DNA from: Gemmatimonas groenlandica
Lineage (GTDB): Bacteria; Gemmatimonadota; Gemmatimonadetes; Gemmatimonadales; Gemmatimonadaceae
Direction: 5' to 3'
Assembly (NCBI RefSeq): GCF_013004105.1
Contig: NZ_CP053085.1
Coordinates: forward strand, 4,154,001-4,218,000
Length of the DNA: 64,000 nt
Positions 24,588-29,181 of the stretch are shown in pieces. Each line of letters starts with the position of its first letter. Position 1 is the stretch's first letter. Both the position numbers and the translations under genes were made by a program. The notes beneath the pieces were generated by a model, which saw only the letters and a list, made by a program, of their open reading frames with translations, was not told the origin of the DNA and searched no databases.

Positions 24588-24596
24588 GACCACTCA
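24569..24596. promoter_or_regulatory. operator of the Phd/VapC module
   Basis: TGAGTGGTCA (24569-24578) and TGACCACTCA (24587-24596) are a perfect 10-base inverted repeat around an 8-base AT-rich spacer. It covers the -10 box and the transcription start and ends at the A of the antitoxin ATG. This is where a Phd/YefM antitoxin or its toxin complex would repress its own promoter. Confidence 0.8.
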
Positions 24597-24823
24597 TGCC
24601 GACCATCCCGATCTCCGAAGCGAAAGCCAGGCTGGCCGCCCTCGTGCGGGAAGTCGCGGCATCCGGCGAGGGCTACGTGATCAGCGTGAACGGCCACCCC
24701 ATGGCCGAGCTGCGCCCCTTCGTGCCCGTTCCCACACCTGGGCGCTTCAAAGACGCGATTCGCTTCAGCGATGACGCCTTTGCGCCGCTTTCCAACGAGG
24801 ATGCCGAAGCCTCGGGGCTATGA
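24596..24823 (+). CDS. Phd/YefM-family antitoxin
   Basis: 75 residues from ATG at 24596. MPTIPISEAKARLAALVREV is the N-terminal DNA-binding module of Phd/YefM antitoxins (beta strand, then the SEAKARL helix), followed by YVISVNGHPMAELRPFVPVP. The acidic C-terminal tail (RFSDDAFAPLSNEDAEASGL) is the type of segment that wraps the toxin. Four-base ATGA overlap with the PIN toxin gene gives coupled translation. Regulated by the operator at its start; no ribosome-binding site is seen, which agrees with a leaderless transcript. Confidence 0.92.
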   Translation: MPTIPISEAKARLAALVREVAASGEGYVISVNGHPMAELRPFVPVPTPGRFKDAIRFSDDAFAPLSNEDAEASGL

Positions 24824-25224
24824 CCGATCTTGTTCAGCCGCTGCTGCTCGACACGGTCGCGTTCATCTTCTGGCACGCCGATAGTCCGCGCCTGTCGCCA
24901 GCAGCGCGTCGCGCCATGCTGGAGGCGCCACAGCGCACGGTGTACGTGAGCGCCGCCAGCGCCTTCGAGATCGCGACCAAGGTGCGACTCGGGAAACTCA
25001 CGGTCCCTCCGGCCATGCTCAACGACTTTGCGTACGTCGTTGCAGCGGATGGTTTTCGATTGCTCGACGTCGATGCGGCGTCGGCGATTCGCGCGGGTCA
25101 ACTCGAGAGCGACCATCGCGACCCCTTCGATCGACTAATCAGTGCGCAGGCACTCGCCCTCAAGGGAGCCGTCGTGACCAACGACGCCGCCTTCGCCGAC
25201 CTTGGCGTCGACGTGTTCTGGTAG
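24820..25224 (+). CDS. vapC: PIN-domain (VapC-type) toxin ribonuclease
   Basis: 134 residues. LLLDTVAFIFWHADSPRLSP is the first strand with the conserved Asp. SAASAFEIATKVRLGKLTVP carries the conserved acidic residue of helix 3, and RDPFDRLISAQALALKGAVV followed by TNDAAFADLGVDVFW supplies the DxxD and the final Asp of a PIN active site. Family members cut tRNA or rRNA in a Mg-dependent manner and are neutralised by the cognate antitoxin. In the type that pairs with Phd/YefM antitoxins the motif DRDPFDRLL is usual; here HRDPFDRLI matches. Length is normal, and no frameshift is seen, so the module looks functional. Confidence 0.92.
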   Translation: MTDLVQPLLLDTVAFIFWHADSPRLSPAARRAMLEAPQRTVYVSAASAFEIATKVRLGKLTVPPAMLNDFAYVVAADGFRLLDVDAASAIRAGQLESDHRDPFDRLISAQALALKGAVVTNDAAFADLGVDVFW

Positions 25225-25284: not shown

Positions 25285-25707
25285 CTACAGCAGCACATCA
25301 CCACGCCGAATGCCTGCCGCCACGGCTTCGGCGCGGCGATGCACGCCAAGTTTTTCGAAGACGGCGGCCAAGTGAAACTTGACCGTACTGCGGCTGATGC
25401 CGAGCCGGACGCCGATGGCGGCATTGCTCAAGCCTTCGGACAAGGCCTGCAGCACGTCGCGCTCGCGATCAGACAGAGCTGAGGCTGCGCCATTGCCGCT
25501 CGTGCCGGCGTCGATCTCGCTCGTTTCCGGCAGGCGCAGATTCCCACCCGTTCCCTCAGGGGCGCTGACAACACGCACGTCAGCGGCGGCAGCGGTCGAG
25601 ACAAAGCGGACATCGGCATGGGAGCCTAGTGCGTCGCGCAACACGCGTCGCGTCCAAGGGTCGGCGACATCGACAAAGATGCGAACCGGATGGGGCCGTT
25701 CGGTCAT
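25285..25707 (-). CDS. LuxR-type regulator with abbreviated N-terminal domain
   Basis: 140 residues from ATG at 25707, overlapping the protease stop by four bases (ATGA). The C-terminal half is a full LuxR/GerE helix-turn-helix: SALSDRERDVLQALSEGLSN, then IGVRLGISRSTVKFHLAAVF. The N-terminal 70 residues (PVRIFVDVADPWTRRVLRDA, LGSHADVRFVSTAAAADVRV) resemble the first strands and helices of a response-regulator receiver but are too short. No phosphoacceptor Asp with conserved Lys is identifiable, so it is probably not phosphorylated. Last gene of the sigma/HtrA cluster and probably its transcription output or feedback regulator. Confidence 0.8.
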   Translation of the reverse strand: MTERPHPVRIFVDVADPWTRRVLRDALGSHADVRFVSTAAAADVRVVSAPEGTGGNLRLPETSEIDAGTSGNGAASALSDRERDVLQALSEGLSNAAIGVRLGISRSTVKFHLAAVFEKLGVHRRAEAVAAGIRRGDVLL

Positions 25708-26396
25708 CGGGCTCGCCACCCGCGTGACCACCCATGGGCCAAGCGAGCGGTGGCGCCAACACGCGCCACAAAGGCGTCCACGTCGGCGATGGGTACCGCG
25801 AGCCCCAACCCACGAGCGATCATCGTGCTCACGCCAACCATCGCGCCATGCGCATCCACGACTGGTCCACCCGAGTTGCCGGGTGCCAAGCGCACATCCA
25901 ACTGCGCCCACGGCAATGCCCGTTGCGGCAAGGGCAACTCGGCATCGCTGCGCAGCGGTCCAATGGCATGGACGACTCCGGTCGTGATGGCATGTCGAAC
26001 GCCCAGGGGATGTCCGACCGCCATGACCACCTGTCCGACACGCAACGGTGCTTTGTCGGCAGGCGGCACGGGTCTCCAACTGGCAGGCGCGTCATCACAG
26101 GAGACTAACGCCAGGTCCCGGACGGTGTCACGGGCGACCAACGTTGCCCGGCGCGTGACGCCGTCAGCACCCGTGAGCGTGATCGGCTCGTGTGTCACCA
26201 CATGCGCGTTGGAGACGATAAGACATCGCCCGTTCGCGTCGCGCGCCCACACGACGCCAGCGCCGCTGTGCGTGCTTCGGCCTTCGCCCGCCTCAACATG
26301 GACCACGCCGGCGGTGGCGTGCGCAATCATGTGCCCACCATCGACCTGCGCGCTCTGCAGGTCGATGGTGGACGTCGCCGAACTCTCCGTCGGCAT
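25704..26396 (-). CDS. trypsin-like (HtrA/S1C-type) serine protease, catalytically complete
   Basis: 230 residues from ATG at 26396. SNAHVVTHE has His65, VRDLALVSC has Asp94 and APGNSGGPVVD has Ser175, so the triad is intact. GVVWARDANGRCLIVSNAHV is a normal S1C segment. There is no PDZ domain and no obvious signal peptide or membrane anchor at this start, in contrast to DegP-like proteins. The start is nine bases after the stop of the PDZ gene. A perfect 15-base-pair hairpin lies just inside the coding region (26335-26371) and may affect its translation. It could cleave a regulator such as an anti-sigma factor, but no anti-sigma gene is visible. Confidence 0.85.
   Translation of the reverse strand: MPTESSATSTIDLQSAQVDGGHMIAHATAGVVHVEAGEGRSTHSGAGVVWARDANGRCLIVSNAHVVTHEPITLTGADGVTRRATLVARDTVRDLALVSCDDAPASWRPVPPADKAPLRVGQVVMAVGHPLGVRHAITTGVVHAIGPLRSDAELPLPQRALPWAQLDVRLAPGNSGGPVVDAHGAMVGVSTMIARGLGLAVPIADVDAFVARVGATARLAHGWSRGWRAR
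26335..26371 (-). promoter_or_regulatory. perfect 15-bp hairpin at the 5' end of the protease coding region
   Basis: Positions 26335-26349 are the exact reverse complement of 26357-26371, separated by a 7-base loop (26350-26356). On the minus-strand mRNA the stem begins about 25 bases after the protease start codon and covers codons 9-21. A perfect 15-pair stem inside coding sequence is unlikely by chance. It could be an attenuator, an RNase site or a translational switch between the PDZ and protease genes. Confidence 0.6.
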
Positions 26397-26405
26397 ACGG
26401 AACCG

Positions 26406-27395
26406 TTACCGCGCGCCGCGACGCGCTTCGCGACGCGTGCGCTGGCCGTCGTTGCCGCCGGGGCGCTCCCCGATGGTGACGATCACGCGCACAAACACCC
26501 CACCGCGGAGCAGGTCGAAGGAGACCGCGCGCCCCGGGGGCATGTGTTGCAGCACATCCAACACATCATGGGGTTCGTGTACGGCCGTACCATCCAGTGC
26601 CAGCACGATGTCGCCGACCAACAAGCCGCTCGTCGCAGCGGGCCCGCCGTCAGCCGTACCGATGATCAGCAAGCCGCCTTCGCGTCCCTGCGCAGCAACT
26701 TTGGCCGATTCGCCCACGCGCACGGCCTGCAGCGCCGCGCCAAGCCATCCGCGCGGGACGTAGCCCGTGGCGACCAGCTGCGAGACGACGCGTTCGACCG
26801 TGTCTGCCGGAATGGTGGTTGCGAGTTGCTGACTCAGGCCACCGCTGTTGATGCCATGCACCCGACCGGCGGCGTCGACGAGCGGACTGCCACCGAAGCC
26901 TGGGTAGAGCGCGAAGCCCGACTGAATGCGACGCGTGTATTCACCACCCTTCCAGGTGCGCCACGCACCACCAATCGCACTCACCGCGCCGAACGACACG
27001 CGAGGTCCGCTGTCGTCGAGTCGCGCGACCGCCATCACGAGATGTCCCGGTCGCAGCGTCGCGGGATCACCAACCGCGGCCGACCCGAACGACACGCCAG
27101 CCTCGACGCGAAGCACGGCGAGGTCACTGGACGCATCGCGCCCGACGAGCGTAGCGGCAACGCGTCGGCCATCGGGGATGGTGACGGTAATGTTTTGTTC
27201 GCGACGTACCGTGGCGTCGGTGGTGACGATCAGCCCGTCGCGCCAATGCACGCCGGTTGATGCGAGTTTTTCGCGGGCATGCACGGCCACGACGGCCTGT
27301 GCGGCGTGTGCCACGGCGCTGGCTAGTTGATCGGAGACCGCAATGAGCGACAGCGGCTCGGTGTGTGGAACTTCGTGCGTATCGGCGTGCGACAT
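26406..27395 (-). CDS. catalytically dead HtrA-like protein with PDZ domain
   Basis: 329 residues from ATG at 27395. The chymotrypsin-like core is recognisable (DGLIVTTDATV, SSDLAVLRVEAG, GFGGSPLVDAAG), but the catalytic His is replaced in the TTDATV segment and Ser in the GNSGGP position is Gly (Gly168 in GFGGSP); only Asp91 remains. A PDZ domain follows (residues about 215-310: GWLGAALQAVRVGESAKVAA, GLLVGDIVLALDGTAVHEPH) and a basic tail rich in Arg. It would bind peptides or the neighbouring protease, not cut. No signal peptide at this start. Its place upstream of an intact protease suggests a regulatory or adaptor subunit. An upstream ORF extension lacks homology and was not used. Confidence 0.82.
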   Translation of the reverse strand: MSHADTHEVPHTEPLSLIAVSDQLASAVAHAAQAVVAVHAREKLASTGVHWRDGLIVTTDATVRREQNITVTIPDGRRVAATLVGRDASSDLAVLRVEAGVSFGSAAVGDPATLRPGHLVMAVARLDDSGPRVSFGAVSAIGGAWRTWKGGEYTRRIQSGFALYPGFGGSPLVDAAGRVHGINSGGLSQQLATTIPADTVERVVSQLVATGYVPRGWLGAALQAVRVGESAKVAAQGREGGLLIIGTADGGPAATSGLLVGDIVLALDGTAVHEPHDVLDVLQHMPPGRAVSFDLLRGGVFVRVIVTIGERPGGNDGQRTRREARRGAR

Positions 27396-27606
27396 GAAGG
27401 ACTCGGCGGTTGAAGCGACTGGCGTGCTTCCTGGCGGGAAACTCGAACAGCCGAAGAGTCGCCGCGGCCGATTGGTCGCATAACTGGCCAAGTGGACGGG
27501 CGGCAGGTTGCGGCAGCGCGATCTGAGGGCGACATCCGCCAGACGCGATCGTGGCGGCGTGGCGACTGTCTCCCGCAAAGCCCTCGGCGGCGGCGACGGC
27601 GCGCCG

Positions 27607-28203
27607 CTACCGGGTGGTGGCGCCGATCAAGACGGTCCGCATCTTCCGAAGGGCCGATCGGGCCCGCGTTTTCACGGTGCCGAGCGGCAAACCGAGTTGT
27701 TCGGCCACGCGCGCATGCGAGGCGCCGCTGAGAAACGACAGTTCGATGACCTCACGCTGTTCAGGTGGTAGCAGTTGGAGCGCACCGTTGAGTTGCGCTT
27801 GCAGCTCTTCGTGCAGCATGGTGTCGAGCACCGAGGCGTCACGGCTGTGTGTGGCCTCGCCGTCGGCCACCGAGAACGAGGACTCTGTGCCGGCGCGCTC
27901 GTTCGCCATGCGGCGACGGGTACGGCGCCGGATGCAATCCAGCGCGCGACTCCGGGTGATCGTCGACAGCCAGGTCTGGACAGACCCACGACTACCGTCG
28001 AATGTGCACGCGTTTCGCCACGCCTGTGCGAAGGCATCGAGGACAACCTCCTCGGCGTCGGCGCGCTCCCCAACCAGCGCCAGCGCCAGCCCGAAGAGTC
28101 GCGGGCTGTGTACGTCGTAGAGTCGCGAAATGGCCCGATCGTCTCCATGTGCCATCTGCTGGACTAGCGCGGCTTCCTCGCGCACTGCCGATTCGTACTC
28201 CAC
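27607..28203 (-). CDS. ECF-type RNA polymerase sigma factor
   Basis: 198 residues from GTG at 28203, preceded by AGAGGA six bases upstream. Region 2 is ISRLYDVHSPRLFGLALALV, with ADAEEVVLDAFAQAWRNAC. Region 4 (LLPPEQREVIELSFLSGASH, VAEQLGLPLGTVKTRARSAL) carries the DNA-binding helix-turn-helix. Between them is an acidic linker of about 40 residues. The region-2/4 spacing and the absence of regions 1 and 3 define an ECF (extracytoplasmic function) factor, close to the SigK/RpoE-like groups. No anti-sigma factor gene is adjacent, which is unusual. It heads the cluster dead-HtrA, protease, LuxR with a 211-base gap before the next gene. Confidence 0.9.
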   Translation of the reverse strand: MEYESAVREEAALVQQMAHGDDRAISRLYDVHSPRLFGLALALVGERADAEEVVLDAFAQAWRNACTFDGSRGSVQTWLSTITRSRALDCIRRRTRRRMANERAGTESSFSVADGEATHSRDASVLDTMLHEELQAQLNGALQLLPPEQREVIELSFLSGASHARVAEQLGLPLGTVKTRARSALRKMRTVLIGATTR

Positions 28204-28353: not shown

Positions 28354-29181
28354 ATGTTGGCACGCACCGCACTGCAGCCCGAGCTCGAGAGTCTCCGGAA
28401 GGCCGACGAGATCTATGCCGGAGTCCGGCTCCTGTCCGAACGTCGCTTCCAAAGCGATACCATCCCGGACATGGATGGCTTTGCCCGGGAGGCGGAGCTT
28501 TTGATGCGCGGGGTGAACAGTGCCGACGTCGTCCTCGGCATCTTCGACCACAGCCGTTACAACCCAGTGCTCGAGGTCGGCGACCGTCACTTTTGGGGGC
28601 CGCTCCCGGATGTGTCCCAGTCCGAGCGGATGCGATTGCTGTTTTCGCTGTTGGATGCCGATTTCAGCGCGTTCCCAGCCGATTCAGTGAAATGGTTCTC
28701 GCGGACGCTGGGTTCGCTCACGTTCGACGAACGGCAGAACATCGAGATTTTCCACTGTGGCATCGCCTACACGCGCACCGACGGACGACCGATCCGGCTC
28801 TTTTCGAAGAGCGTGCCGATCCACTACACCGTCGACCGGCAGTTCACGTTCTCGTTCAACTACGCGCAGAACGTGCACCACCTGCTGAAGCCGGGTTTTC
28901 GCGACTACTGGATTCGGTTGGCCTACGGCGCGGGCGGCGATATGGTGCAATCCATGCACTCTGCCGAGGCGAAGGATGCCGGGCCGCGCGATCTCCTGTC
29001 GTCGCGGGAGAAGCAGATTCTCGTGGAGATCGCAGCGGGCATGGAAACTAAGGACATCGCCGACAAGCTCAGGATCAGCGTCAATACCGTCGGGAATCAT
29101 CGCAGCAACATGGTGCAGCGACTGGGCGCACGAGACACGACGGCCTTGGTGCAGCTGGCGAAGATGGCCGGCTTGATTTAG
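28354..29181 (+). CDS. LuxR-type regulator with PAS-like N-terminal domain
   Basis: 275 residues. The C-terminal helix-turn-helix is REKQILVEIAAGMETKDIAD and LRISVNTVGNHRSNMVQRLG, the LuxR/GerE fold. The N-terminal 200 residues (DDIPDM-like IPDMDGFAREAELLMRGV, VLGIFDHSRYNPVLEVGDRH, FWGPLP, GIAYTRTDGRPIRLF) resemble a PAS-like sensory domain found in front of LuxR modules in Bacteroidetes and relatives. No receiver domain is present. It diverges from the sigma/HtrA cluster and could regulate it, though this is inferred from position only. A start further upstream is unlikely because the intergenic region contains inverted repeats. Confidence 0.75.
   Translation: MLARTALQPELESLRKADEIYAGVRLLSERRFQSDTIPDMDGFAREAELLMRGVNSADVVLGIFDHSRYNPVLEVGDRHFWGPLPDVSQSERMRLLFSLLDADFSAFPADSVKWFSRTLGSLTFDERQNIEIFHCGIAYTRTDGRPIRLFSKSVPIHYTVDRQFTFSFNYAQNVHHLLKPGFRDYWIRLAYGAGGDMVQSMHSAEAKDAGPRDLLSSREKQILVEIAAGMETKDIADKLRISVNTVGNHRSNMVQRLGARDTTALVQLAKMAGLI

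Follow-up and report, generated by a model that had tools for sequence, protein, structure and literature searches.

Four neighboring genes on the minus strand of the Gemmatimonas groenlandica genome encode an ECF sigma factor, an HtrA-PDZ protein with a degenerate active site, a small HtrA-like protease, and a LuxR-type regulator. They lie in a 64,000-nucleotide stretch of DNA (the window) inside the complete 5.18-Mb genome. An earlier note on this DNA proposed that they form an undescribed system. The locus raises two questions: which of these genes belong together, and what does an HtrA protein do when it has lost the residues needed for proteolysis?

Locus organization

The coordinates and Pfam domains establish that all four genes are present in the order read previously. 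The HtrA-PDZ and small protease genes are separated by 9 bp, and the protease stop and the LuxR start overlap by 4 bp (ATGA). The LuxR gene is 423 bp long, which corrects a 264-residue frame beginning at TTG. The HtrA-PDZ start codon was assigned by homology as the likeliest one and has no clear ribosome site before it. A gap of 211 bp separates the end of the sigma gene from the HtrA-PDZ gene downstream of it and contains a conserved promoter element. On the plus strand, a Phd/YefM-type antitoxin gene and, after it, an overlapping PIN-domain toxin gene form a pair (24596-25224) convergent with the operon, and a second GerE-type regulator gene (28354-29181), whose product has an unrecognized N-terminal domain, diverges from the sigma gene. 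An Rfam scan of the 24-30 kb portion of the window gave no match.

Table 1. Features of the HtrA-PDZ locus, numbered from the first position of the window
Feature	Position	Strand	Basis of assignment
LuxR/NarL-type regulator, truncated remnant receiver, C-terminal end GDVLL	25285..25707	-	GerE HTH, E = 9e-19
Small HtrA-type serine protease without PDZ	25704..26396	-	Pfam Trypsin_2
HtrA-PDZ protein, S1C type, dead	26406..27395	-	Pfam Trypsin_2 and PDZ above cut-off; alignment to live HtrAs
Predicted -10-like element GACTCT, 21 bp past the operator	27455..27460	-	Fixed spacing across loci
Predicted operator CCGTCCACTTGGCCAGTT, dyad CYGNCC-N4-GGCCAG	27482..27499	-	Motif in 46/46 upstream regions
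Orphan ECF sigma factor, neighbor outside the conserved unit	27607..28203	-	Sigma70_r2 and r4

The conserved unit excludes the sigma factor

A profile search delimited the HtrA-PDZ family cleanly; members score below E = 1e-115, and general HtrAs stop near 1e-68. Of 395 genomes, 45 carry the family, at 46 loci in total. All of these loci are confined to two related families of one order; sampling beyond the phylum is thin, and the carriers probably belong to the single phylum Gemmatimonadota. Only 4 of the 30 sampled genomes of the same genus, our own included, have the operon. A GTDB contig search with a single protein returned one true relative, from a pond MAG of the same genus, and otherwise remote HtrAs. 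One genome (G054) contains two operon copies (L068 and L072), each belonging to a different and distant family clade.

The earlier note had suggested a genome-neighborhood search as the check on its grouping, and the result divides the proposed system. The HtrA-PDZ, protease, and LuxR genes recur together. A GerE gene lies directly downstream of the HtrA-PDZ gene on the same strand at 41 of 41 loci with a long enough contig (one, in G373, is a fragment), and the small protease gene lies between the two at 34 of 43 decidable loci. The protease gene is absent from four loci with a dead HtrA-PDZ gene (G032, G335, G407, and G368) and from five with an intact one. No further recurrent neighbor was found around the operon outside near relatives. 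A literature search, mostly of journals open without subscription, found no paper on such an operon. The three genes form a conserved bacterial operon that is apparently undescribed. To this extent the proposal of an undescribed system stands, but it does not extend to the sigma factor.

The sigma factor has regions 2 (PF04542) and 4 (PF08281) and lacks region 3. It might be the output of the locus, with the pseudoprotease or the protease controlling it in place of an anti-sigma factor. Its gene is adjacent, on the same strand, and, as noted earlier, has no anti-sigma gene beside it. However, a sigma orthologue adjoins the operon at 1 of 46 loci, that of its own genome, and at none of the other 45; the promoter of the operon lies in the gap that separates them. 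Outside these loci, the closest sigma relatives share about 51% identity with it, several of them adjoining RskA-like anti-sigma genes. We consider the output role very improbable. The neighborhood data reject the sigma factor as part of the operon; its gene is a chance neighbor. One of the close relatives beside an RskA-type anti-sigma gene is a paralogue in the same genome (G000, C1:5046664-5048216), which is 51% identical. RskA_C matches in the window genome are at C1:5047761 and C1:3134757, neither adjacent to the sigma gene of the window.

The HtrA-PDZ protein has lost two catalytic residues

The HtrA-PDZ protein consists of a trypsin-like domain (PF13365, 2.9e-22) and one C-terminal PDZ domain (PF13180, 4e-10). 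Its profile matches DegP structures across both domains, and its best solved relatives are DegP, DegQ, AlgW, and DegS. Alignment to the HtrAs of the same genome bears out the earlier reading that the catalytic His is gone, the Ser position is Gly, and only Asp91 is retained (H61A, S168G). The His-Asp-Ser triad is present at 35 loci of the family, and A/G-D-G replaces it at 11 loci from 11 species, a sharing that goes beyond chance. The live class is a residue-level call, with GFSGG in place of GNSGG. The change to GFSGGP was seen in L068, L089, L090, L091, and their relatives, and the partner protease carries it too throughout one subclade and at a single locus besides. In a tree built with the catalytic columns omitted, the 11 dead sequences form one clade (support 100/99). 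By this sequence evidence, the triad was lost once, anciently, in one lineage. The dead clade combines members from two bacterial families, as at loci L066, L174, L183, L067, and L177, and within the genus the operon has a patchy distribution; both suggest horizontal transfer or repeated loss.

The dead gene evolves under constraint. Its dN/dS is 0.11-0.25 (0.15-0.25 within the genus and 0.11-0.18 among species that lack the protease gene), resembling the adjoining LuxR and protease genes, although the values are rough and synonymous sites are near saturation. These ratios indicate purifying selection on the dead gene, including where the locus has no protease. The single origin of the dead state and these dN/dS values argue that the protein is functional. 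Fourteen positions are fixed in the dead clade to residues unlike the live majority, and A124, Q158, S159, P165, G168, S184, G185, and S188 lie around the former active site; these changes look like a remodeled binding surface. Loss of two catalytic residues could also mark a decaying pseudogene. The same dead state in 11 species, the open frame, a dN/dS of about 0.2, and the clade-fixed residues, several at the former active site, make decay extremely improbable, and it was rejected. Invariant positions in the dead clade number 66 of 195 in the protease domain versus 18 of 102 in PDZ. That PDZ is less conserved than the degenerate protease domain speaks against it as the principal functional surface.

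Neither a signal peptide nor a transmembrane segment was found in HtrA-PDZ by hydropathy. The maximum over 19 residues at the N terminus is 0.49-1.41 across the family versus 1.68-2.0 for the genome's own HtrAs. The absence of export signals, judged from hydropathy only, places the protein in the cytosol. An AlphaFold monomer model built from a two-row alignment has a pLDDT of 35 and was set aside.

The small protease is dispensable at the locus

The small protease has the triad His65, Asp94, and Ser175, exactly as numbered previously, and His-Asp-Ser is found in 34 of 34 homologous genes. It is predicted to be a live HtrA-type protease with an intact triad. The earlier note had proposed, as a working hypothesis, that the pseudoprotease senses peptides with its PDZ domain and controls this enzyme or the sigma factor. 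In a rival reading modeled on the magnetosome proteins, the dead HtrA would serve mainly to activate or scaffold the adjacent live protease without catalysis of its own, and LuxR would simply control their joint expression. The dead and live genes adjoin at 7 of 11 dead loci, and there is precedent in that dead MamO is needed for MamE proteolysis and active/inactive pairs arose three times (PMC4794232). Against an essential role of this kind, four species keep the dead HtrA-PDZ and LuxR genes without the protease gene, which shows that the locus can do without an active protease. Within the dead clade there were two or more losses of the protease, and selection still acts on the dead gene where several protease-less species were compared. 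The five loci with an intact HtrA-PDZ and no protease gene point the same way. In the genomes without the gene at the locus, a protease may be encoded elsewhere. We judge the activator or scaffold role unlikely.

The LuxR regulator has a degenerate receiver

LuxR carries a GerE HTH (PF00196, 9e-19), and in its longer homologues the receiver region can be aligned with that of NarL. The receiver is degenerate. Its acidic pair and Lys are absent from every aligned LuxR, only a few have the phosphorylatable Asp, the Response_reg match is below cut-off, and in the window lineage the domain has been shortened to about 70 residues. Phosphorylation is an unlikely input because these residues are absent, or mostly absent in the case of Asp. 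The C terminus ends in phi-phi-x-L at 41 of 41 operon loci (40 Leu and 1 Val). A few of the 15 other GerE proteins of the window genome end in this way too.

A conserved predicted operator and promoter precede the operon

Upstream alignments of the operon loci first made a shared element visible. Gibbs sampling recovered it in 37 of 37 representative upstream regions, and a matrix derived from these sites locates it in all 46 regions upstream of the HtrA gene. The motif scores 479, whereas Markov shuffles reach 268 ± 6 and random segments from the same loci 309 ± 7. The dyad is TCNCCCG-WW-CGNCCGATG in most clades and CYGNCC-N4-GGCCAG in the window genus; a perfect example is CTGTCC-GTTC-GGACAG (G368). 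One genome (G049, L066 6646-6707) has an operator made of a 15-bp unit repeated in tandem about four times upstream of its dead HtrA gene. A -10-like xANNNT lies 21 bp downstream of the operator (measured from the end of the operator, 76% of loci have A at +23 and 87% have T at +27). Transcription is expected to start near 27448. The fixed 21-bp spacing to the -10-like element would center the operator near -43, where class II activators, NarL/FixJ-type proteins among them, usually bind. In the LuxR recognition helix, VK is followed by a bulky residue (F/H/Y) with a C-initial site and by a small one (T/A/S) with a T-initial site at 39 of 40 loci. This agreement is suggestive; it reflects two or three changes on the tree, too few for a statistical test. 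Another regulator may bind the dyad instead.

The exact genus-type site occurs once in the window genome, at the operon. The combined promoter pattern had 21 matches in 29 genomes, of which 17 are the operon, making the full promoter practically unique to the operon in each genome. A regulon search with the operator patterns found no convincing target beyond the operon. LuxR might instead govern stress responses generally through numerous target sites that have diverged, the operon being only its feedback arm; autoregulation is common among regulators, and some genomes have single-mismatch operator sites elsewhere. However, genus-type sites are no more frequent than in genomes without the operon, the full pattern occurs elsewhere only four times in the 29 genomes, and the few extra operator sites inspected have no clear promoter sign. 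A broad regulon is rather doubtful.

Proposed mechanism

The best explanation, which we hold to be fairly probable, is that HtrA-PDZ, the small protease, and LuxR form one self-contained operon, autoregulated by LuxR, in which the dead HtrA acts by binding. LuxR, without need of phosphorylation, would bind the dyad about 43 bp upstream of the start and activate its own operon; positive autoregulation is likely given the operator position, with activation preferred over repression. HtrA-PDZ would be made in the cytosol and, in the window lineage, would act by binding alone, where it may hold peptides or damaged proteins. That the dead protein works by binding is very likely. The small protease would be an optional catalytic partner. 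The dead HtrA most likely feeds back on LuxR. HtrA PDZ domains generally prefer hydrophobic C termini, and because all 41 operon LuxR proteins end in phi-phi-x-L, the PDZ may grip the free hydrophobic C terminus of LuxR (G-phi-phi-x-Leu). We offer this capture tentatively and think it somewhat unlikely; such an end is in part normal for NarL-type proteins, which counts against the best explanation. An extension of the idea is a cytosolic DegS-like logic without proteolysis, in which the PDZ holds the C terminus of the LuxR activator until the ends of damaged proteins compete it off. One operon would then supply sensor, effector, and feedback loop. This scheme is speculative and rather unlikely.

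Discussion

A dedicated regulator of a protease operon is familiar from control of the CtsR or ClgR type. The window operon shares with these a dedicated regulator of a protein quality-control operon and differs in the DNA-binding family and the proteases. Like DegS and DegP, HtrA-PDZ has a trypsin-like domain followed by PDZ, but it has no export signal, has lost His and Ser, and scores far below the curated cut-offs; the operon has no RseA-type anti-sigma target and carries a LuxR gene. In the MamO/MamE magnetosome islands, a degenerate trypsin-like HtrA is encoded with an active HtrA and has kept its fold after loss of catalysis (PMC4794232). The window operon likewise has a dead HtrA beside an active one, with catalysis lost and the fold retained. 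In contrast to MamO, HtrA-PDZ reaches 22 bits with the NCBIfam MamO model, whose cut-off is 800, has no TauE domain (only the trypsin-like and PDZ domains were found), and is predicted to be cytosolic, and the operon adds a LuxR gene and a conserved operator while its live partner is dispensable. NarL/FixJ response regulators with aspartate-less receivers are known, and the window LuxR resembles them in its GerE HTH and a receiver remnant unable to be phosphorylated (PMC4395418). It differs from them in its link to HtrA genes rather than a kinase, and in the short receiver of the window lineage.

The family provides a natural series, live HtrA-PDZ with protease, live alone, dead with protease, and dead alone, in which a non-proteolytic role of HtrA could be told apart from cutting. 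The series comes with its own dedicated regulator and with a promoter predicted to be single-site. HtrA repurposing is thereby seen outside magnetosomes, and a LuxR protein with a degenerate receiver is linked to a possible protein-binding input rather than a kinase.
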